NCBI RefSeq assembly: GCF_003268595.1
Contig: NZ_CP029797.1
Span: forward strand, 3,431,501 to 3,495,500
Direction of reading: 5' to 3'
Source: Paraliobacillus zengyii
GTDB taxonomy: Bacteria > Bacillota > Bacilli > Bacillales > Amphibacillaceae
DNA length: 64,000 bases
Shown here one piece after another: positions 8,826-41,712 of the stretch. Position numbers and translations under genes: made by a program. Under the pieces are notes generated by a model, which worked only from the letters and a program-made list of their open reading frames with translations, ran no database searches and was not told where the DNA came from. Position 1 is the first letter of the stretch, and each line of letters opens with the position of its first letter.

Positions 8826-9050
8826 AGTAATAGATAGCAACTGTGACGGAGTTAGACTTGATTACCCGCTACGCTCCACAAGTAAAATGGGCTCGCTTTC
8901 CGTGGACACGGCTTCAGCTAATTCGGATAAGCAAAGACCGCTTTCCGAGTGGATCTTCAGCCCGTGGGATTGCGATTACTCATCCCATCGAAAACATTTG
9001 CTGTTCCCACAGGAGTCTCGCCCATTTCACTTGCTCCGCTGGATAGGCAA
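8826..9050 (+). repeat. Structured intergenic repeat, copy 1 (left half of doublet 1)
   Basis: A roughly 200-bp imperfect palindrome of the family found at eight more places here. Conserved blocks: a 5' box resembling GATAGAAACTGCGAC, the core CGCTTTCCGTGG...CACGGCTTCAGCTAA, then GTGGATCTTCAGCCCG and CCCACAGGAGTCT. Outer arms are CAAGTAAAATGGGC (8879-8892) and GCCCATTTCACTTG (9020-9033), complementary with one mismatch. The inner stem is centred near 8925-8945. It carries an extra insert (GGGATTGCGATTACTCATCCC) relative to copies at 34.4 and 41.5 kb. No coding frame in it is credible. Confidence 0.8.
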
Positions 9051-16289: not shown

Positions 16290-16470
16290 TCGGAATTACC
16301 ATTAACTGCCGTAAAGTTCTAGTCTTACTCGCTACGTCAGCAAATGCTTTCCCTTTCCACGGGCACGGCCTCAGCTAACTTAGTAAAGCAAAGAACGCTT
16401 TACTAAGTGGATCTTCGGCTCGCGCTATTCCCGTAGGAGTGTCAAGCATTTGCTTCCTTTGCTAGTGGAT
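16290..16470 (+). repeat. Structured intergenic repeat, copy 3 (left half of doublet 2)
   Basis: The same family as copy 1. Inner stem ACTTAGTAAAGC / GCTTTACTAAGT is perfect. Outer arms GCAAATGCT (16340-16348) and AGCATTTGC (16445-16453) are complementary but unrelated in sequence to the outer arms of other copies. Confidence 0.8.
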
Positions 16471-16560: not shown

Positions 16561-16806
16561 AGACAAAACTAGCGGATCAAGTGAAATGGGCGACACTCCT
16601 GCAGGAACAGCGAATGTTTTTGATGGGATGAGTAATCGCAATCCCACGGGCTGAAGATCCACTCGGAAGCGTACTTTCTTCCGAGTTAGCTGAAGCCGTG
16701 CCTGCGGAAAGGGAGTCCATTTCGCTTGAGGAGCGGGGCATAAATTCTATTGTATTGCAATTTATATAAAGAATGTTACGTCGCAGTTTCTCTAAAGTTC
16801 GTAGGA
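16561..16806 (-). repeat. Structured intergenic repeat, copy 4 (right half of doublet 2)
   Basis: A minus-strand copy. The inner stem is ACTCGGAAG (16661-16669) with CTTCCGAGT (16678-16686), a different sequence from copy 3 but fully paired. The outer arms pair CAAGTGAAATGG-like with CCATTTCGCTTG. The 5' box AGAAACTGCGACGTAACATT is at the right end. With copy 3 it spans about 515 bp and fills the gap between the PTS operon and the AEC gene. Confidence 0.8.
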
Positions 16807-30338: not shown

Positions 30339-30448
30339 CAATTTAACTCCTTTGCTGTTCCTACTTGAATCTATTTATTGTATCATCTTTATTTTTAAAA
30401 AAGTAAAGATGTGCTTCCTTTTATCTCCAATGAATTAGAAACAAATTA

Positions 30449-30482
30449 AAAAGCTTCCTAACAATTTTCGTTAAGAAGCCTT
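30449..30482 (-). terminator. Terminator of the M24-PLP-M20 operon
   Basis: AAGGCTTCTTAAC pairs with GTTAGGAAGCTTTTT on the minus strand (one wobble), overlapping the last codons of the M20 gene. Confidence 0.75.
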
Positions 30483-31690
30483 TCAGTAGTATAGTATTCT
30501 CTAAAATAACTGTCTATTGTAGCTTTTATTATTCCAGTCCCTATCGAAAGTGCAGCTTCATCCAACATAAAATCTGATGCATGAAGTGAATGCTTCGTCT
30601 CTTCTGATTGAGCACATCCAAGAAAAAACATTGCACCGGGGATTTCTTTCGTGAAATGTCCGAAGTCTTCTCCACCCATACCGTATGGCGCATGGCTTAT
30701 TTCCATACCAGGAAACAGCGACAATCCTGCATTTTCAATCATATCTATTAATTGATCATTATTATCTAATACTGGTTCGCCACTTTCTATTTCAAATTGA
30801 TAATCCCCTTCAAAAGAGTAGACCAACTGAGCTACTTGGTCAATTTCTTTAATAAGTTGCTTTCTTACTTTATCTGAATAAGATCGAATAGTTCCGATAA
30901 TTTTCACCGTATCTGGAATAATATTTGGATTTTGACCCCCACTTACTTTCCCTACGCTTATTGTTCCCACTTCTAATGGATCTATTTTCCTACTAATTAC
31001 GCCATAAAGGCCCTGGAGGACAAATCCTAGCATCCAGATTGGATCTTTACTTTCATGTGGATAGCCACCATGTCCTCCCTTTCCCATAATAGTCAGACAA
31101 AAATTATCAACATTCGCCATACTTGCACCCTTATTAACTTGAATTGATCCAGTACGTTGCCAAGGACACATGTGTAAAGCTAAAAATGCATCTACTTGCT
31201 TCGTTAGACCAGCTTCTATAAAGTAAGGTGCGCCCGTTTTACCATCTATATCAGTATCCTCTTCCGCCGGTTGAAATATGAGCTTTACCGTTCCTCGAAA
31301 GTTTTCTGTTTGATAATCAGAAGCAACTAATACTGCTACACCTAATAGAATTGCCATATGGGCATCATGACCACAGGCATGCATGACACCTGGGTATGCA
31401 GAAGTATATGGGAGATCATTTTGCTCTGTGATTGGAAGTGCATCCATATCAGCCCGAATACCAATTACTGGACCACTTCCCTTCGTAATAGTTGCTATAA
31501 TGCCATGTTTAGCAATTCCTCTTTCAATGGTAAATACGTTCAATGACTCTAACACTTCTACAATATAATCACTCGTTTGTGATTCTTGAAAACTCAATTC
31601 TGGATATTGATGAAAGTGACGTCTCCATTTATTTAACTGTTCTTCTAGTGCATAAGCCTGGTCCTTAATTAGATCCAATTGTTGTCTCAT
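30458..31690 (-). CDS. M20-family amidohydrolase (N-acyl-L-amino-acid hydrolase type)
   Basis: A 410-residue di-metal hydrolase. Metal and catalytic motifs: GIRADMDALP, MHACGHDAHMA and FQPAEE in the first half, PYGMGGEDFG later, and the dimerisation lid between. Relatives release an acyl group from N-acyl amino acids (hippurate, N-acetyl-diaminopimelate, N-acyl-Cys). The upstream DoeA-like gene would produce N-acetyl-diaminobutyrate, which this enzyme could deacetylate (inference). It is third in the operon, 17 bp after the PLP gene. The internal ATG after AGGAGGTG is chosen over a GTG seven codons earlier. Confidence 0.85.
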   Translation of the reverse strand: MRQQLDLIKDQAYALEEQLNKWRRHFHQYPELSFQESQTSDYIVEVLESLNVFTIERGIAKHGIIATITKGSGPVIGIRADMDALPITEQNDLPYTSAYPGVMHACGHDAHMAILLGVAVLVASDYQTENFRGTVKLIFQPAEEDTDIDGKTGAPYFIEAGLTKQVDAFLALHMCPWQRTGSIQVNKGASMANVDNFCLTIMGKGGHGGYPHESKDPIWMLGFVLQGLYGVISRKIDPLEVGTISVGKVSGGQNPNIIPDTVKIIGTIRSYSDKVRKQLIKEIDQVAQLVYSFEGDYQFEIESGEPVLDNNDQLIDMIENAGLSLFPGMEISHAPYGMGGEDFGHFTKEIPGAMFFLGCAQSEETKHSLHASDFMLDEAALSIGTGIIKATIDSYFREYYTTERLLNENC

Positions 31691-31707
31691 ATGCACGACA
31701 CCTCCTA

Positions 31708-32907
31708 TCACGTAGTTGCAAAAAGCTTTTCTGGCAACAAGTGAAAAGCTTGCTCTAAATCATCTAGCAAATCTTCAATATCCTCTATACCAGCTGAATA
31801 ACGAATCAATCCTTCTGGTATTCCCATGGCCGCTCTTTCCTCTGGAGTACATTCAACATGACTGGTCGTTCTTGAAGGACCTACCACTGTTTCAACAGCT
31901 CCTAAGTTCGCAGCTCGATTCGCATATTTCAACTTGGGTAACAAGTGACGAACTGTATCCACACCACCTTTTACAGCAAAACTTAACATACCACCATATT
32001 GTTTCATTTGTTCTGTTGCAATGGAATGACCAGGATGACTCTCTAATCCTGGGTAATATACCGCTTCAACAATATTTACTGTTTGTAAATATTTAGCCAC
32101 CGCTAACGCGTTTTTACATTGTTTATCGACACGAAGCTTCAGTGTTTTCATTCCTCGGAGTAACAAGTATGCAGCCATTGGATCCAATGTTGCTCCATTA
32201 ATTTCTCGATAATGATAAATCGCTTCAACTAATTCCTCAGATCCACAAACAGAGCCTCCTAGTGCATCCGCGTGTCCTCCTAAATATTTTGTTGCACTAT
32301 GAATTACCAAGTCAGCACCTAATGCTAATGGGTTCTGATTAATCGGTGTTGCGAAGGTATTATCAACAATTACAACAGCTCCTGCCGCTTTTCCAACCTT
32401 CGCCATCCGTTTTATATCTGTTATTTTCACTGTCGGATTCGTAGGTGTTTCTAAATATAGTACGTTGCATCCTTTGGCAACTTCTTGCTCAATAGCCTCA
32501 TGGTCGCCTGTATCACAAAGAACAACGTCAATATTCAATTTAGGTAAGAATTCTGTAAATATTTTATTTGTTCCACCATACGTGTCCTTAATTGATATAA
32601 TCCGATCACCTGGTGAAAGTAATGTACCTAATGTGTTACTAATTGCTGCCATTCCAGTTGAAAAACTAGTAGCAGCTTTTGCTCCCTCAAGGTCTTTTAT
32701 TTTTGCTTCAAATGCTTGCACAGTTGGATTCGTATTACGACCATATATATGACCTTCTTTCTTCCCGATTGCTACATCATACCATTCATCCATATCATCA
32801 TAACCGAAAGATACACTATGAACTACTGGTACTTGTGTTGCTCCAAAAGCTAATGAATCTTTTTCTCCTGCCCATATTGCACGCGTTCCTATTTTTGCCT
32901 GTTTCAT
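31708..32907 (-). CDS. Cys/Met-metabolism PLP enzyme (cystathionine gamma-lyase/synthase family)
   Basis: A 399-residue fold-type I PLP enzyme. Seen: IYGRNTNPTV, the cofactor-site SFSTGMAAIS, KDTYGGTNKIF, LETPTNP, IVDNTFATP and the PLP lysine in HSATKYLGGHADALGG. These enzymes carry out gamma- or beta-elimination or gamma-replacement on Cys/homoserine derivatives. No sulfur-metabolism gene is nearby; it lies between a DoeA-like and an M20 gene. An unusual substrate such as 2,4-diaminobutyrate or an S-conjugate is therefore possible (speculative). The ATG after GGAGGG is used. Synthase and lyase roles cannot be separated by eye. Confidence 0.85.
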   Translation of the reverse strand: MKQAKIGTRAIWAGEKDSLAFGATQVPVVHSVSFGYDDMDEWYDVAIGKKEGHIYGRNTNPTVQAFEAKIKDLEGAKAATSFSTGMAAISNTLGTLLSPGDRIISIKDTYGGTNKIFTEFLPKLNIDVVLCDTGDHEAIEQEVAKGCNVLYLETPTNPTVKITDIKRMAKVGKAAGAVVIVDNTFATPINQNPLALGADLVIHSATKYLGGHADALGGSVCGSEELVEAIYHYREINGATLDPMAAYLLLRGMKTLKLRVDKQCKNALAVAKYLQTVNIVEAVYYPGLESHPGHSIATEQMKQYGGMLSFAVKGGVDTVRHLLPKLKYANRAANLGAVETVVGPSRTTSHVECTPEERAAMGIPEGLIRYSAGIEDIEDLLDDLEQAFHLLPEKLFATT

Positions 32908-32932
32908 TATTATTCCCTCCAATAAAAGCTGA

Positions 32933-34141
32933 TTAACTAATTATTCCTGATTGCTGTGTTCGTGGAAATGGATCTTGAACAATTAATTCTCTTGGATAAT
33001 TTGCTAATGTTTCACATCCATTTTCCGTGATACGTACGGATTCACTTATTTCAATACCGTGTTGATCAAACCATAAAGCTGGAATAAAGTGAAAAGTCAT
33101 ATTTGGCTGCAAAATCGTAGTATCTCCTTTTCGAAGACTAGCGGTGTGTTCTCCCCAATCAGGCGGATAATTTAGTCCAACTGAATAGCCAATTCTCGCT
33201 TCTTTTTTAAAGCCGTATTTTTTAATCGACTTTCGCCAAACTTCTTCTACTTCACCACAAGTCATTCCTGGTTTCATCGCCTGAAGAACTTTATCCATTC
33301 CTTCCAAGACAACGGATTCTAAGTTTTGTAATTTACTAGTTGGTTTCCCTATAGATACAGTGCGTGCTAATGGAGAATGATATCGTTTATAACAACCAGC
33401 TAATTCAACAATTACAGCTTCTCCCTCAATATATTTACGATCTGACCATGTCAAATGAGGATTACCTGTATTCTCTCCTGAAGGAAGTAAAGGAACAATC
33501 GAAGGATAGTCACCACCATATTCCTCTGTACCACTAATCATGTTGTAGTACATCGTGGCGGCTGCATCACATTCTCTAACACCCGTACGAATCATTTCTG
33601 TACCCCTGAACATCGCTTGTTCAGCAATCTTTGCTGCTCTTTTCATATAGTGAATCTCCTGATCCGATTTAACCATTCGAACATAGTTGACAATCAAATC
33701 ACCATCTTTAAATATTGCATTGGGTAAACCGCGTTTCAAACTATCATATGCCTTTGCTGAGAAATAATAATGATCCATCTCTACACCAATATTGCGATTA
33801 CCTTGCCCGATTTGCGTCAATACTTCTGCAATATAATCCATTGGGTGATAGTTAGTCGAATTTACATAATAATCAGGATATGCCATCACATTTTCATCAT
33901 AAAGCCATGTTGTAGCTTTCACTCCATTTGCATCCATATATCGTCCAATCCAAATTGGCTGTGCTTCATCAATAATAATAATTAGCATTTGATGCACATA
34001 AAAAGACCATGCATCATACCCCGTTAAATAGTACATATTAGCTGGATCAGAAATTAATAGGACATCAATTCCGCTTTCAGACATTTTTTGTTTTGTTTCT
34101 CTTATCCGATTTTGATACTCGATCAAATCAAAAGCTAGCAT
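32933..34141 (-). CDS. M24-family hydrolase, ectoine hydrolase (DoeA)-like
   Basis: A 402-residue pita-bread-fold protein. It aligns end to end with remembered Halomonas DoeA: SDPANMYYLTGYDAWSFYVHQ, GVEMDHYYFSA, GGDYPSIVPLLPSG and GLNYPPDWGEHT are shared almost unchanged. DoeA opens the ring of ectoine to N-acetyl-L-2,4-diaminobutyrate. Plain Xaa-Pro peptidases are the alternative, but the similarity favours DoeA. It is first in a three-gene operon with a PLP enzyme and an M20 hydrolase. A perfect TnrA box lies 80 bp upstream. The second ATG is chosen, seven bases after GGAAGGGG. Confidence 0.75.
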   Translation of the reverse strand: MLAFDLIEYQNRIRETKQKMSESGIDVLLISDPANMYYLTGYDAWSFYVHQMLIIIIDEAQPIWIGRYMDANGVKATTWLYDENVMAYPDYYVNSTNYHPMDYIAEVLTQIGQGNRNIGVEMDHYYFSAKAYDSLKRGLPNAIFKDGDLIVNYVRMVKSDQEIHYMKRAAKIAEQAMFRGTEMIRTGVRECDAAATMYYNMISGTEEYGGDYPSIVPLLPSGENTGNPHLTWSDRKYIEGEAVIVELAGCYKRYHSPLARTVSIGKPTSKLQNLESVVLEGMDKVLQAMKPGMTCGEVEEVWRKSIKKYGFKKEARIGYSVGLNYPPDWGEHTASLRKGDTTILQPNMTFHFIPALWFDQHGIEISESVRITENGCETLANYPRELIVQDPFPRTQQSGIIS

Positions 34142-34189
34142 GTGCATTCCCCTTCCTGAATTAATAGAATATCTACTAATTCAAGTATT

Positions 34190-34237
34190 ATTATCAGAAT
34201 ATTTATATATTTCTTTCTATTGTAAGGTTTGATCACA
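34190..34237 (-). promoter_or_regulatory. TnrA box and promoter of the DoeA-like operon
   Basis: TGTAAGGTTTGATCACA (34221-34237) fits the TnrA/GlnR consensus TGTNA-N7-TNACA exactly. A GATAAT -10 (34190-34195, minus strand) puts the box centre near -46; there is no good -35, as in TnrA-activated promoters. Activation during nitrogen limitation is inferred. Confidence 0.7.
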
Positions 34238-34419
34238 TTTTATGTAATGTCCAAAATGTATGAAGTGATTTTTTTCTTTCCTACACATTTGCTAGGTGTG
34301 AGCACAAGCAATAATAATTTAATTCAACTTTCGAAGACTGAAAAGAGCAGATAAGACTTGGTCTAACTAGAAAATCACACAATACAAAATTTAAGTTGAC
34401 TTCCCTTCCGTTTCACCTT

Positions 34420-34585
34420 AAGAACTTGATAGAAACTGCGACATAACATGCCGCTTTGGAAATATACTTCGCTTTCCGTGGGCACGGCTTCAGCTAACTT
34501 AGTAAAGCAAAAAACGCTTTACTAAGTGGATCTTCAGCCCGCGCTGTTCCCACAGGAGTCTACGTATATTTCCAAAGCTAGATAT
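34420..34585 (+). repeat. Structured intergenic repeat, copy 6 (left half of doublet 3)
   Basis: A clean copy. The 5' box GAACTTGATAGAAACTGCGA leads to outer arms GCTTTGGAAATA (34453-34464) / TATTTCCAAAGC (34567-34578). The inner stem is ACTTAGTAAAGC (34497-34508) / GCTTTACTAAGT (34516-34527). About 90% identical to the copy at 41.5 kb. Confidence 0.85.
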
Positions 34586-35080: not shown

Positions 35081-36763
35081 TTATTGATTATCATTTTTCA
35101 CTTGTTGCAGTTTCCAAATACGAACACTTAGTTCCAGTAAAAATGCATCGTCTGAATCAACTAAAGATAATTTTGTTAATGTTTCAATATTACGTAGACG
35201 ATGTAATAATGATTGCCGATGTAAATTTAGGGCTCGGGCCGTTTGACTGACGTTTCCTTTATATTGATTATATGTTGAAAAAGTGTGGACAAGATCTGTC
35301 TGACGTTTTTGATCATAAATTAATAAATTATTTAAAGTCTGTTTCACAATATCCTTAACTTCTGGTTGATCAGATAAAGCCATTAACAATCGATCCACCT
35401 TCGTATCCTCATACATCGTTCGATTTCCGTAACCACCCTGTTCAATACCAATTTCAAGCGCAATTTTGGCTTTCCGATACGCATCTGAGAAGGAATAATC
35501 ATCAATTTCTGGAGCTGCAATACCCCATGATATTACAATACCTTTCAACAACTCGCTTACACGACGTTCTACTTTATCTAAAAATTGATTAGCTATCTCC
35601 ATATAAGCTTCTGGTGTTGCTTCTAAAAAGATGATTACTTTTCCAGCATCAAATGTCGTCATCGTTTTCACTGAAAATAATTCTCCAGCGTAAGTAATCT
35701 CCTTTTGAATGGCATAGTTTTGACTTTGTAAAGAAGAATTCTCTGATCGATCATTATCATATTGTTTAATAGCTTCACGATAATATAAATCTCCGACTAG
35801 ACAAATATAATAGTACGTTAGGTCATATCCAAGTAAATCTGCTTTAGCAATTAAGTGATTGTCTTTGGCTACTTTCTGTTGCGCTAATTGTAAAACAAAA
35901 TTATCTTTGAGTCGTACTTCAGTTAATTCAATTGCATTTTCTTTAACAAAGTATAAAGCGCATGCCGTTAATGCATGTTCTAATACATTCATTACAAACC
36001 ACGAAAGTTGTTTTTTTTGTGTTGATTGCACCAATAAATACCCTTGTATCTTATGATTATTAATGACAGGGAGATAATAAATTGTTTGTTCCTTAACCTG
36101 ATACGCTTCTAATAAATAATATAATGGATGTTCTCCCACTGATAAATCACTTTTACTAGTTTTTTCTTTATGCTTTAATTCTGTTTGAAAAGGTGTTAAC
36201 CACTCATTAGAAAAACTCCTGTTTGCTCGGATAGAAAACTGGTTATCACTAATAGCAAGTGGTAAGTGTACATATTTATATAAAACCTGCGCTATATCCT
36301 GTAATCCCTTGTCATTCAATACACAATTGACCAATTGCTGACGAACGATTTCCGCCTCTTCTCTTTCGTCTTGTTTATCCGCAGTAATTTTCTGCATAAT
36401 ATTTGCTACAATATCACCAAACCGAACTTCCCAGGGTATATCAATTAAAATTAAATGTGACTGATTTGCTATTTGCAATAGATTACTAGGTATATCAAAT
36501 ACATATCTACCCGTGGCAAAGGCTAAAACGGAAGCACCAGATTGAATAATGTCTTTAACAAATGTTTCTAAAGCTTCCGGATCATTTTTGCACCCAATAC
36601 CTGTCGTTAGTACAAATTCATTTTTACGTACAAAATTCTCAACTGGCGACTCTATGACAGATACCCACTCAATATTATTTGTTACGAGATTAGTTTCTCC
36701 TGCTTTTATTGTTGAAGATTCAAAGATTGAAAGTTCCAATATTTCTTGTGCCAATAACCCCAT
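35081..36763 (-). CDS. PucR-family transcriptional regulator next to the DoeA-like operon
   Basis: A 560-residue regulator. The N-terminal PucR domain (about 1-130) holds VLTTGIGCKND and GRYVFDIP. A middle GGDEF-like/CdaR region follows, then a C-terminal HTH_30: KGNVSQTARALNLHRQSLLHRL. The family senses purines or other nitrogen compounds and activates their catabolic genes. It is upstream of, and on the same strand as, the DoeA-like operon, separated by a terminator and a repeat doublet, so control of that operon is likely but unproven. The start ATG follows GGGGTGA. It is clearly distinct from the second PucR protein at 48.6 kb. Confidence 0.82.
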   Translation of the reverse strand: MGLLAQEILELSIFESSTIKAGETNLVTNNIEWVSVIESPVENFVRKNEFVLTTGIGCKNDPEALETFVKDIIQSGASVLAFATGRYVFDIPSNLLQIANQSHLILIDIPWEVRFGDIVANIMQKITADKQDEREEAEIVRQQLVNCVLNDKGLQDIAQVLYKYVHLPLAISDNQFSIRANRSFSNEWLTPFQTELKHKEKTSKSDLSVGEHPLYYLLEAYQVKEQTIYYLPVINNHKIQGYLLVQSTQKKQLSWFVMNVLEHALTACALYFVKENAIELTEVRLKDNFVLQLAQQKVAKDNHLIAKADLLGYDLTYYYICLVGDLYYREAIKQYDNDRSENSSLQSQNYAIQKEITYAGELFSVKTMTTFDAGKVIIFLEATPEAYMEIANQFLDKVERRVSELLKGIVISWGIAAPEIDDYSFSDAYRKAKIALEIGIEQGGYGNRTMYEDTKVDRLLMALSDQPEVKDIVKQTLNNLLIYDQKRQTDLVHTFSTYNQYKGNVSQTARALNLHRQSLLHRLRNIETLTKLSLVDSDDAFLLELSVRIWKLQQVKNDNQ

Positions 36764-36900
36764 TAACTTCACCCCACAAAAAGGAATAAGATGATCAGAC
36801 GCTATTCTATCGCATCTTAATCATCTTAGTTACTGTTATTTTAACACCCCTTCATTTTACCAAATATTCAGATAATTAAAATTAAATTTATCCGTTAATT

Positions 36901-37224
36901 TTAATCTTTTTGAATTCCAAAGCGAGCATTGATTTCCCCTCTTAGCAATTCTTTTCGGCCTTTACGTTCATCTTTACGTTTCTTTTTCAGCATCTCTTGT
37001 CTAATTTCGTAAGTTTGTACGCCTTCTTCTCTTTTATTAGCAATATCGATTAGTTGTTCAACATCCGCAAATGAATATTTACGATTACCTTTCGGAGAAC
37101 GATCAGGAAAAATCAATTTCCTTTCTTCATAATACCGAATTTGTCGTTCGGTTAAGCCGGTTAGTTCACTTACGACGCCAATCGTGATTACTTTCCTCTC
37201 CTTATATGAAGGATTGTCAATCAT
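36901..37224 (-). CDS. tnrA: Nitrogen-responsive transcription regulator TnrA
   Basis: A 107-residue MerR-fold regulator very close to remembered B. subtilis Tnr[40 protein letters not shown] and VQTYEIRQ. TnrA activates or represses nitrogen-assimilation genes when nitrogen is limiting; feedback-inhibited glutamine synthetase holds it through its C-terminus (here GEINARFGI). GlnR is the alternative, but there is no glnA next door, and the length and C-terminus fit TnrA. It has a perfect box for itself upstream, implying autoactivation as in B. subtilis. The start ATG follows GGCGGTGA. Confidence 0.9.
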
Positions 37225-37274
37225 AATTTTCACCGCCAAACTTCTTTTGTGTTTGTATTTTAGTTATTTCTTCT

Positions 37275-37326
37275 ATTATACACAGTTTAATCGGTTATCT
37301 ATATAGTTATGTCATATTATCTAACA
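37275..37326 (-). promoter_or_regulatory. TnrA box and promoter of tnrA
   Basis: TGTCATATTATCTAACA (37310-37326) matches TGTNA-N7-TNACA exactly. A TATAAT -10 (37275-37280, minus strand) places its centre near -50, the position typical of TnrA activation; the -35 is poor. Confidence 0.8.
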
Positions 37327-41548: not shown

Positions 41549-41712
41549 CGAACTTGATAGAAACAGCGACATAACATACCGCTTTGGAAATATCCTCCGC
41601 TTTCCGTGGGCACGGCTTCAGCTAACTTAGTAAAGCAAAAAACGCTTTACTAAGTGGATCTTCAGCCCGTGCTGTTCCCACAGGAGTCTACGTAAATTTC
41701 CAAAGCTAGTTC
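41549..41712 (+). repeat. Structured intergenic repeat, copy 8
   Basis: Near-identical to copy 6: 5' box GAACTTGATAGAAACAGCGA, outer arms GCTTTGGAAAT (41581-41591) / ATTTCCAAAGC (41696-41706), and the same perfect 12-bp inner stem. It fills most of the gap between the GH43 and fhs genes. Confidence 0.85.

Follow-up and report, generated by a model that had tools for sequence, protein, structure and literature searches.

The known route of ectoine degradation (doe/eut) consists of DoeA-DoeB-DoeD-DoeC or EutD-EutE-Atf-Ssd, and a locus of Paraliobacillus zengyii, a salt-loving Bacillus relative with a genome of 3.73 Mb in one contig, raises the question of how ectoine could be utilized by an operon that combines a DoeA homolog with a different set of enzymes. 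The stretch analyzed here (64,000 nucleotides of contig NZ_CP029797.1, positions 3,431,501 to 3,495,500; hereinafter, the window) contains a minus-strand unit of three genes that encode an M24 family protein predicted to be a DoeA/EutD-like ectoine hydrolase (32933-34147), a pyridoxal phosphate (PLP)-dependent enzyme of the cystathionine gamma-synthase family (PRK08249; 31708-32922, with an ATG at 32907) and an M20 family deacylase (30458-31711, with an ATG at 31690). With the internal ATG starts, the intergenic gaps are 25 bp (M24-PLP) and 17 bp (PLP-M20), in agreement with the single tight operon with gaps of 17-25 bp described in an earlier note on this DNA.

We propose, with moderate confidence in the scheme as a whole, that this operon degrades ectoine via homoserine. 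Ectoine, taken up through a perhaps co-regulated tripartite ATP-independent periplasmic (TRAP) transporter or synthesized by the cell itself, would be converted by the M24 protein to N-alpha-acetyl-2,4-diaminobutyrate through ring opening, as suggested by the homology to DoeA and EutD, and the M20 enzyme would remove the acetate, as suggested by gene context. The PLP enzyme would then release the gamma nitrogen of 2,4-diaminobutyrate in the form of ammonia and, upon addition of water to the beta,gamma-unsaturated intermediate, yield L-homoserine, that is, act as a diaminobutyrate gamma-hydrolase. Oxidation of homoserine via aspartate semialdehyde to aspartate would follow in most relatives, the clusters of which encode a dedicated homoserine dehydrogenase (HSD) and an aldehyde dehydrogenase (ALDH), with an aspartase encoded nearby in a few loci; in the lineage of the window, homoserine would enter the housekeeping threonine/methionine metabolism or be processed by the single other HSD.

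Ectoine as the predicted substrate of the operon

Among the 12 families listed for the M24 protein, the best match is ectoine_eutD (TIGR02993; 499.2 bits, the next one being 259), and the nearest structures in the PDB are those of DoeA (6twk/6twj, 418 bits), with the best prolidase at 130 bits. In an alignment with the prolidase 1pv9, the five metal ligands are replaced in the M24 protein (D to E, D to P, H to Y, E to I and E to S), and DoeA shows the same kind of replacement. Given the replaced ligands and the difference between the DoeA and prolidase scores, a metalloprolidase function of the M24 protein is unlikely. A protein annotated as DoeA on a Klebsiella plasmid shares 48% identity with it.

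Across 398 evenly sampled genomes of Bacilli (DoeA at E<=1e-110, PLP enzyme at E<=1e-140), DoeA was identified in 36, the PLP enzyme in 39 and both in 34, with two DoeA-positive genomes (G116 and G426) lacking the PLP enzyme. Among 61 genomes of relatives, that of P. zengyii included (DoeA at no less than 54% identity, PLP enzyme at E<=1e-100, M20 enzyme at no less than 45% and HSD at no less than 54% identity), DoeA was detected in 30, the M20 enzyme in 24 and the PLP enzyme in 20, the latter two exclusively within the DoeA-positive set; the HSD of the relatives was found in 13 genomes, all among the 20 that encode the PLP enzyme. This set contains a single further genome from the genus, G001, which yielded no match to the PLP enzyme and distant DoeA matches only. 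Together with the PLP genes located near doeA on 28 enterobacterial plasmids (see below), these patterns of co-occurrence make it very likely that the operon degrades ectoine, as the earlier note had suggested.

The M20 enzyme belongs to the amidohydrolase family TIGR01891 (367 bits, cut-off 154), and its nearest relatives with solved structures include YxeP and an N-acyl-glutamine aminoacylase. No match to DoeB/EutE (TIGR02994) was found in the P. zengyii genome at E <= 0.001, and an M20 gene is present in 93 of the 120 distinct loci that contain both doeA and the PLP gene. The gene context, including the restriction of M20 orthologs to DoeA-positive genomes, supports the earlier proposal that the M20 enzyme takes over the deacetylation role of DoeB.

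Family and active site of the PLP enzyme

The PLP enzyme scores 739 bits with PRK08249 (NF006097; cut-off 600) and 432 bits with Cys_Met_Meta_PP (PF01053), and remains below the cut-off of the methionine gamma-lyase family (392 vs 549.7 bits). Across 117 distinct sequences of doeA-linked PLP enzymes, Tyr60, Arg62, Tyr115, Asp187, Lys212, Arg239, Glu240 and Arg374 are invariant, Gly117 is found in 116 and Arg351 in 115, and position 339 is occupied by Asn in 113 and by His in four. The enzyme shares the fold family of methionine and cystathionine gamma-lyases and keeps Tyr60, Arg62, Tyr115, Asp187, Lys212 and Arg374; it differs from methionine gamma-lyase in having Gly117 in place of Cys, the Arg239-Glu240 pair, Arg351, and Asn339 aligned with the conserved active-site Ser. 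According to PMC9307983, replacement of this Ser by Ala in methionine gamma-lyase reduces elimination approximately hundredfold, with a smaller effect on gamma-elimination when the leaving group is good. The changed residue at position 339 fits a changed reaction. As an absolute signature, Asn339 was considered and rejected: a Klebsiella homolog has Ser in this position, and His is common to four Gracilibacillus enzymes that come from loci without M20.

In a tree of PLP enzymes constructed with a quick method, without bootstrap and with support values from the Shimodaira-Hasegawa-like approximate likelihood ratio test (SH-aLRT), the window enzyme forms a three-member clade without HSD together with Natronobacillus (G035) and Paraliobacillus (SH-aLRT 97); the most similar PLP gene among the best 80 of the 273 PLP-selected loci is that of Natronobacillus azotifigens (89%). 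Because this clade is nested within HSD-positive Aquibacillus, with moderate support for the inner forks (SH-aLRT 86-88), HSD and ALDH probably were lost in the lineage of the window.

Gene neighborhoods and the predicted formation of homoserine

We compared 67 loci selected by doeA (the window included, all distinct) with the best 80 of 273 loci selected by the PLP gene; in ten cases among the 147 scored loci, two loci share the same DoeA because the same genome had entered two sets, and the counts were repeated on the 137 distinct loci. A common gene order in the relatives is (EutB)-PucR-DoeA-(EutC)-PLP-M20-HSD-ALDH, with M20, EutB, EutC and PucR each absent from many loci. All of the best 80 PLP-selected loci contain doeA, 68 contain HSD and ALDH, 62 contain M20, and one further locus has ALDH alone, with a split HSD. 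Wherever the PLP, HSD and ALDH genes are all present, they follow each other in this order on one strand (96 of 96 distinct loci; 103 of 103 with duplicates). The family assignments were obtained for individual relatives: the HSD of L032 matches PRK06270 (439 vs 373), the EutB of L045 matches PRK07476 (419 vs 413), and the EutC of the same locus matches the cyclodeaminase family PRK08291 (463 vs 408) but scores 399 vs 472 for ectoine_eutC.

Among the doeA-selected loci, 50 encode the PLP enzyme and 10 a class III aminotransferase, never both (hypergeometric 8e-8, which, the genomes being related, is no true probability). Neither enzyme is encoded in seven loci, five of which are second doeA copies in genomes where the other doeA locus has the PLP gene. 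HSD is present in 36 of the 67 loci, always with the PLP gene. An ALDH of this type was found in 38 loci, namely, 35 with the PLP enzyme and HSD, and three (L044, L050 and L153) where M20 and ALDH (61-62% identical) are accompanied by a class III aminotransferase, and both the PLP enzyme and HSD are absent. The clean swap rests on these three loci because the other seven aminotransferase loci carry a pair of the type seen in L051, that is, a gamma-aminobutyrate transaminase (764 vs 676 bits) and a succinate-semialdehyde dehydrogenase (666 vs 646; both NCBIfam). Collectively, these patterns suggest that the PLP enzyme and HSD jointly do the job of the transaminase, from diaminobutyrate to aspartate semialdehyde. 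Because the PLP gene is followed in most relatives by those for HSD and ALDH, and an aminotransferase replaces the PLP enzyme and HSD in three of the 67 loci, the reaction of diaminobutyrate and water to homoserine and ammonia appears likely. Judging from these genomic associations, it is highly probable that the PLP enzyme acts on diaminobutyrate; with this substrate granted, homoserine would be its product with good, if lesser, probability, which is lower still for the reduced operon of the window.

Aspartase homologs (67-71%) were identified in three doeA loci (L119, L138 and L163), with a distant one in L167, and homologs of BCCT, ProP-like, Ehu-type binding or TRAP permease proteins in 50 of 146 loci, the transporter queries, except TRAP, having been named by eye. 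A second doeA-like gene was observed within loci L112, L114, L116, L122, L147, L148, L161 and L163, in several of these just after ALDH.

Canonical enzymes in the P. zengyii genome

Neither a diaminobutyrate aminotransferase (DoeD) nor DoeC is encoded beside the window operon. The presence of such an aminotransferase elsewhere in the genome was considered and rejected: the four class III matches are argD (508 vs 496), hemL (645 vs 527), a member of PRK07678 (795 vs 488), the surroundings of which resemble a cluster for pyrimidine degradation (named partly by eye), and a gene that adjoins the ectoine synthase gene ectC and is probably ectB (C1 320657-322300 for the two genes together). Given this adjacency, the organism probably also makes ectoine. 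A dedicated HSD elsewhere in the genome was rejected as well, the sole HSD showing 37% identity; four ALDH homologs show 31-39%. Thus, the genome search that had been proposed for doeBCD and an ectoine transporter detected neither doeB nor a diaminobutyrate aminotransferase, whereas a candidate TRAP operon similar to TeaA/UehA was found (see below).

PLP enzymes outside the chromosomal doeA loci of Bacilli

A doeA gene was missing, at the threshold used, from a few PLP-positive Bacilli genomes. In one of these (G309, locus L208), the contig end falls inside M20, an aspartase adjoins ALDH, and the PLP enzyme groups in the tree with doeA-linked enzymes; the doeA-free genomes were thus counted as four (G270, G366, G322 and G404), all with the PLP-HSD-ALDH trio. 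In the first three (L206, L207 and L209), the trio has a GntR-type gene (as determined for L206) next to it and is followed by a permease that, in both L206 and L209, matches the S-methylmethionine permease with a score of 664 bits (cut-off 716; L207 is nearly identical to L206); a homocysteine S-methyltransferase gene comes next in G270 and G366 (451 vs 215 in L206, with L207 nearly identical). In G404, the trio is near genes for an aspartase and an asparaginase-like protein. The cluster of L206, L207 and L209 is a possible route from S-methylmethionine to aspartate that would release dimethyl sulfide. We give about equal weight for and against the broader view that PRK08249 is a hitherto unassigned family of homoserine-forming gamma-hydrolases and that PLP-HSD-ALDH is a plug-in module leading to aspartate, with ammonia (from diaminobutyrate) and possibly dimethyl sulfide (from S-methylmethionine) as leaving groups, in parallel to the hydroxyguanidine of canavanine.

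In the plasmid collection, 33 records encode a PLP enzyme with at least 60% identity (5 from Priestia, 27 from Klebsiella and 1 from Pluralibacter), and 375 further records match below 60%. All 28 enterobacterial records also match the Klebsiella DoeA query, approximately 2.2 kb from the PLP gene (27 at 100% and one at 99.5%, in two pieces); one extra Klebsiella plasmid record, not among the PLP matches, contains a partial doeA. Three of the plasmid regions (L211, L215 and L216) have the order ehuABCD, a MocR-type regulator (GntR + Aminotran_1_2), doeA, doeB and the PLP gene. In tblastn searches of these three regions, the HSD and aminotransferase queries from the relatives gave no match; L211 encodes an ALDH on the opposite strand that is 30-36% identical to the ALDH queries. 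As an independent lineage, the enterobacterial clusters support a substrate from the ectoine pathway and are silent on the product because HSD is missing from these regions and the Klebsiella homolog has Ser and Cys in place of Asn339 and Arg351, respectively. These three Klebsiella plasmids were typed IncFIB, one of them also IncHI1B. The plasmid of Priestia megaterium ATCC 14581 (L213) carries a full ectoine cluster, in which eutB is separated from the M24 gene by pdxS, a gene involved in making PLP.

Regulation and other features of the locus

Upstream of the operon, on the same strand, a PucR family regulator is encoded (35081-36772; Pfam PucR, GGDEF_2 and HTH_30), which we propose as the regulator of the operon. 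A conserved motif, TTCATACANTTTGAACATTAC, lies just upstream of the TnrA box discussed below; the window copy, TTCATACATTTTGGACATTAC (34244-34264, minus strand), a candidate operator, has one mismatch. With up to three mismatches, the motif is found upstream of doeA in 36 of the 39 distinct loci with a PucR that is at least 45% identical to that of the window, compared with one of 54 loci with a PucR below 45% and 14 of 44 without PucR in the locus. The consensus was derived from 19 loci, and without these and their copies, the respective counts are 21 of 22, one of 54 and 12 of 42. At up to two mismatches, 10 of the 16 sites in the 61 genomes are upstream of doeA; the reversed control gave four sites. 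To judge from this distribution, a PucR-type regulator probably sets the expression of the operon at 34244-34264.

The P. zengyii genome contains two sites with up to two mismatches, one upstream of doeA and the other approximately 320 bp before the TRAP transporter operon (L188:4449-7462, that is, C1 3302948-3305961), as well as a third site at three mismatches. The TRAP binding protein is most similar to 4pfi (208 bits), 3gyy and 2vpn (195 and 193) and 3fxb (184), with the next PDB match at 135; 3gyy, 2vpn and 3fxb are TeaA and UehA. TRAP genes are also present in five doeA loci (DctM 53-65% and DctP 34-44% identical). A joint regulon of the doeA and TRAP operons is no more than probable because a chance site is expected in ~0.07 of genomes. 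The reading frame of the binding protein has no ATG, GTG or TTG ahead of the signal peptide and may start at ATT.

The earlier note had invoked control by TnrA on the strength of a perfect box, TGTGATCAAACCTTACA (34221-34237, minus strand). The box is indeed perfect as a string, with zero mismatches to the loose consensus TGTNAN7TNACA, but is weak evidence, given that the window contains three such sites, with 1.9 expected under a first-order model. It is not among the five window sites that match a stricter consensus with one mismatch allowed. A perfect box is found upstream of doeA in six of the 137 distinct loci, the window included (seven of 147 before duplicate removal, with ~2.5 expected), and in none of the 18 aligned relatives, five of which have one-mismatch sites in other positions. 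The site overlaps the -10 like hexamer of a weak match to the promoter consensus (ATTACA-18-TACAAT, 9/12; 34219-34248, minus strand) located in the interval that separates the conserved motif from the start codon. Given its rarity, the approximately two sites per window expected by chance and this overlap, TnrA was rejected as the main control. The tnrA gene itself (36901-37239, minus strand; NF053740, 169 bits vs 140) is upstream of the operon, and tnrA is within the locus in 14 of the 120 distinct loci with doeA and the PLP gene; because of this and the one-mismatch sites in five of 18 relatives, an indirect link to TnrA may exist. A further box (37310-37326), ~70 bp upstream of tnrA, exactly matches the stricter consensus and is consistent with autoregulation.

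A terminator-like hairpin of the intrinsic type (30447-30485, minus strand) spans the M20 stop codon at the end of the operon; the consensus scan yielded six hairpins in the region vs 2.2 in shuffles. A palindromic repeat of ~150 bp is present at 34431-34580, between the PucR gene and doeA, and at 41559-41708 (96% identical to each other), with further full or partial copies in the window at 16349-16440, 8893-8964 and 16647-16723. The repeat folds strongly (z -5.8) and looks like a small mobile or repetitive extragenic palindromic (REP)-like element.

Alternative explanations

The main rival for the window operon is gamma-elimination of 2,4-diaminobutyrate by the PLP enzyme to 2-oxobutyrate and ammonia, the reaction that the earlier note had put in place of DoeD and DoeC. 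We consider it rather unlikely, although the chemistry fits the family, HSD is not found next to the PLP gene in the window, in its two nearest relatives in the tree and in the three enterobacterial plasmid regions, and the Klebsiella enzyme keeps the Ser that, according to PMC9307983, is important for elimination in methionine gamma-lyase. This Ser is replaced by Asn or His in all 117 doeA-linked sequences, the window operon is nested among HSD-positive ones, and 2-oxobutyrate is less likely because the usual neighbors of the PLP gene, HSD and ALDH, fit homoserine as the product and would not be expected to use 2-oxobutyrate. Thus, the earlier suggestion stands as regards the position of the PLP enzyme, in place of the diaminobutyrate transaminase, and probably gives way to homoserine formation as regards the reaction, less clearly so for the shortened operon of the window. 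That the PLP enzyme is itself the pathway transaminase appears quite improbable. Its gene has the position of atf in the order published for Bacillales, pucR-eutBCD-atf, abgB-thrA-adh (PMC13188858; the match of the label was deduced from the order), and the class III aminotransferase found instead in three loci implies an equivalent job, but the enzyme belongs to PF01053 and PRK08249. Moreover, HSD would have no use next to a transaminase, yet it accompanies the PLP enzyme and is absent where the aminotransferase stands.

Two other explanations concern the substrate. The PLP enzyme could use N-gamma-acetyl-diaminobutyrate and release acetamide from it, which would make a deacetylase unnecessary. 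Loci with doeA, PLP, HSD and ALDH but no M20 exist (18 of 147, duplicates included; four of the 67 doeA-selected loci and 14 of the best 80 of 273 PLP-selected ones), and His339 is shared by the four Gracilibacillus enzymes of M20-less loci. Nevertheless, the prevalence of M20 in the loci with doeA and the PLP gene, the location of doeB between doeA and the PLP gene in the three plasmid regions, and the description of the DoeA product as the alpha-acetyl form in PMC5924519 make this very improbable. Even less credible is the degradation of N-acyl S-conjugates by an M20 acylase and a C-S lyase, which the earlier note had offered as an alternative use of the M20 and PLP pair, with the M24 protein as a dipeptidase; this reading is in line with YxeP and the N-acyl-glutamine aminoacylase among the closest solved relatives of the M20 enzyme. 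The M24 protein, however, lacks the five prolidase ligands (in the alignment with 1pv9) and is far closer to ectoine hydrolase than to prolidase, and homologs of EutB and EutC are encoded in 50 and 65, respectively, of the 120 distinct loci with doeA and the PLP gene.

The route via homoserine has to be weighed against a number of less favorable observations. Ammonia is a poor leaving group, and a literature search limited to open-licence PubMed Central papers found no cystathionine-family enzyme acting on diaminobutyrate. No HSD or ALDH is encoded beside the window operon, and the single HSD of this genome is apparently a housekeeping enzyme. The Klebsiella homolog has Ser for Asn339, Cys for Arg351 and no adjoining HSD, and the L051-type pair in seven of the ten aminotransferase loci (one tested) leaves three clean swaps. 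The M24 protein is below the curated TIGR02993 cut-off of 613, and the M20 enzyme reaches 223 bits with DoeB2 (NF038260), below the cut-off of 550, and is not in the locus in 11 of the 50 PLP-positive doeA-selected loci; of the 39 Bacilli genomes with the PLP enzyme, five (including the one cut by a contig end) gave no doeA above the threshold. On the regulatory side, the six motif sites away from doeA, compared with the four in the reversed control, could be due to chance, and the TRAP operator site carries two mismatches.

Implications and comparison with known systems

If the proposed route is correct, halophilic Bacilli would possess a second path that leads from diaminobutyrate to aspartate without an amino acceptor or a transaminase, the gamma nitrogen being set free as ammonia in one step; the first half of this path may also be encoded on enterobacterial plasmids. 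A function could then be assigned to proteins that carry the automatic name 'cystathionine gamma-synthase family protein' and to the abgB, thrA and adh genes, so far unassigned, of a published cluster, and the conserved motif would be an operator on which a PucR-type regulator of ectoine genes can be tested. A homoserine route for ectoine was not found in the same literature search.

Compared with the doe/eut pathway, ring opening by a DoeA/EutD homolog, deacetylation and, in the complete relatives, aspartate as the proposed end product are the same, as are the EutB and EutC homologs in many relatives. The differences are the M20 enzyme in place of DoeB, the PRK08249 PLP enzyme with HSD in place of the DoeD transaminase, and the PucR-type regulator; the window, in addition, lacks the last two steps. 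A putative ectoine cluster of Bacillota, pucR-eutBCD-atf-abgB-thrA-adh, was published in April 2026 and is called tentative there (PMC13188858); it has the gene set and type of order of the relatives described here. The gene in the PLP position is named atf there, and abgB, thrA and adh are annotated but, in the same portion of the text, given no step; in the main text, 'homoserine' appears once, for thrA reducing aspartate semialdehyde to homoserine, and 'cystathionine' is absent. The operator and the reduced three-gene form were not seen in the available text of that paper.

A precedent for the chemistry is canavanine utilization, where, according to PMC10018355, canavanine-gamma-lyase converts canavanine to homoserine and hydroxyguanidine. 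Two plasmid regions from rhizobia, both marked by a B3/4-domain gene, contain genes for HSD and ALDH, 46-48% identical to those of the relatives described here, followed by dapA and aspartase, so that the HSD, ALDH and aspartase genes are grouped; the Cys/Met-family PLP proteins of these regions are 34-37% identical to the window enzyme. Thus, in the canavanine route, as in the one proposed here, a PLP enzyme frees homoserine from a gamma-substituted aminobutyrate, the difference being the leaving group, which is hydroxyguanidine in the former and would be ammonia in the latter.

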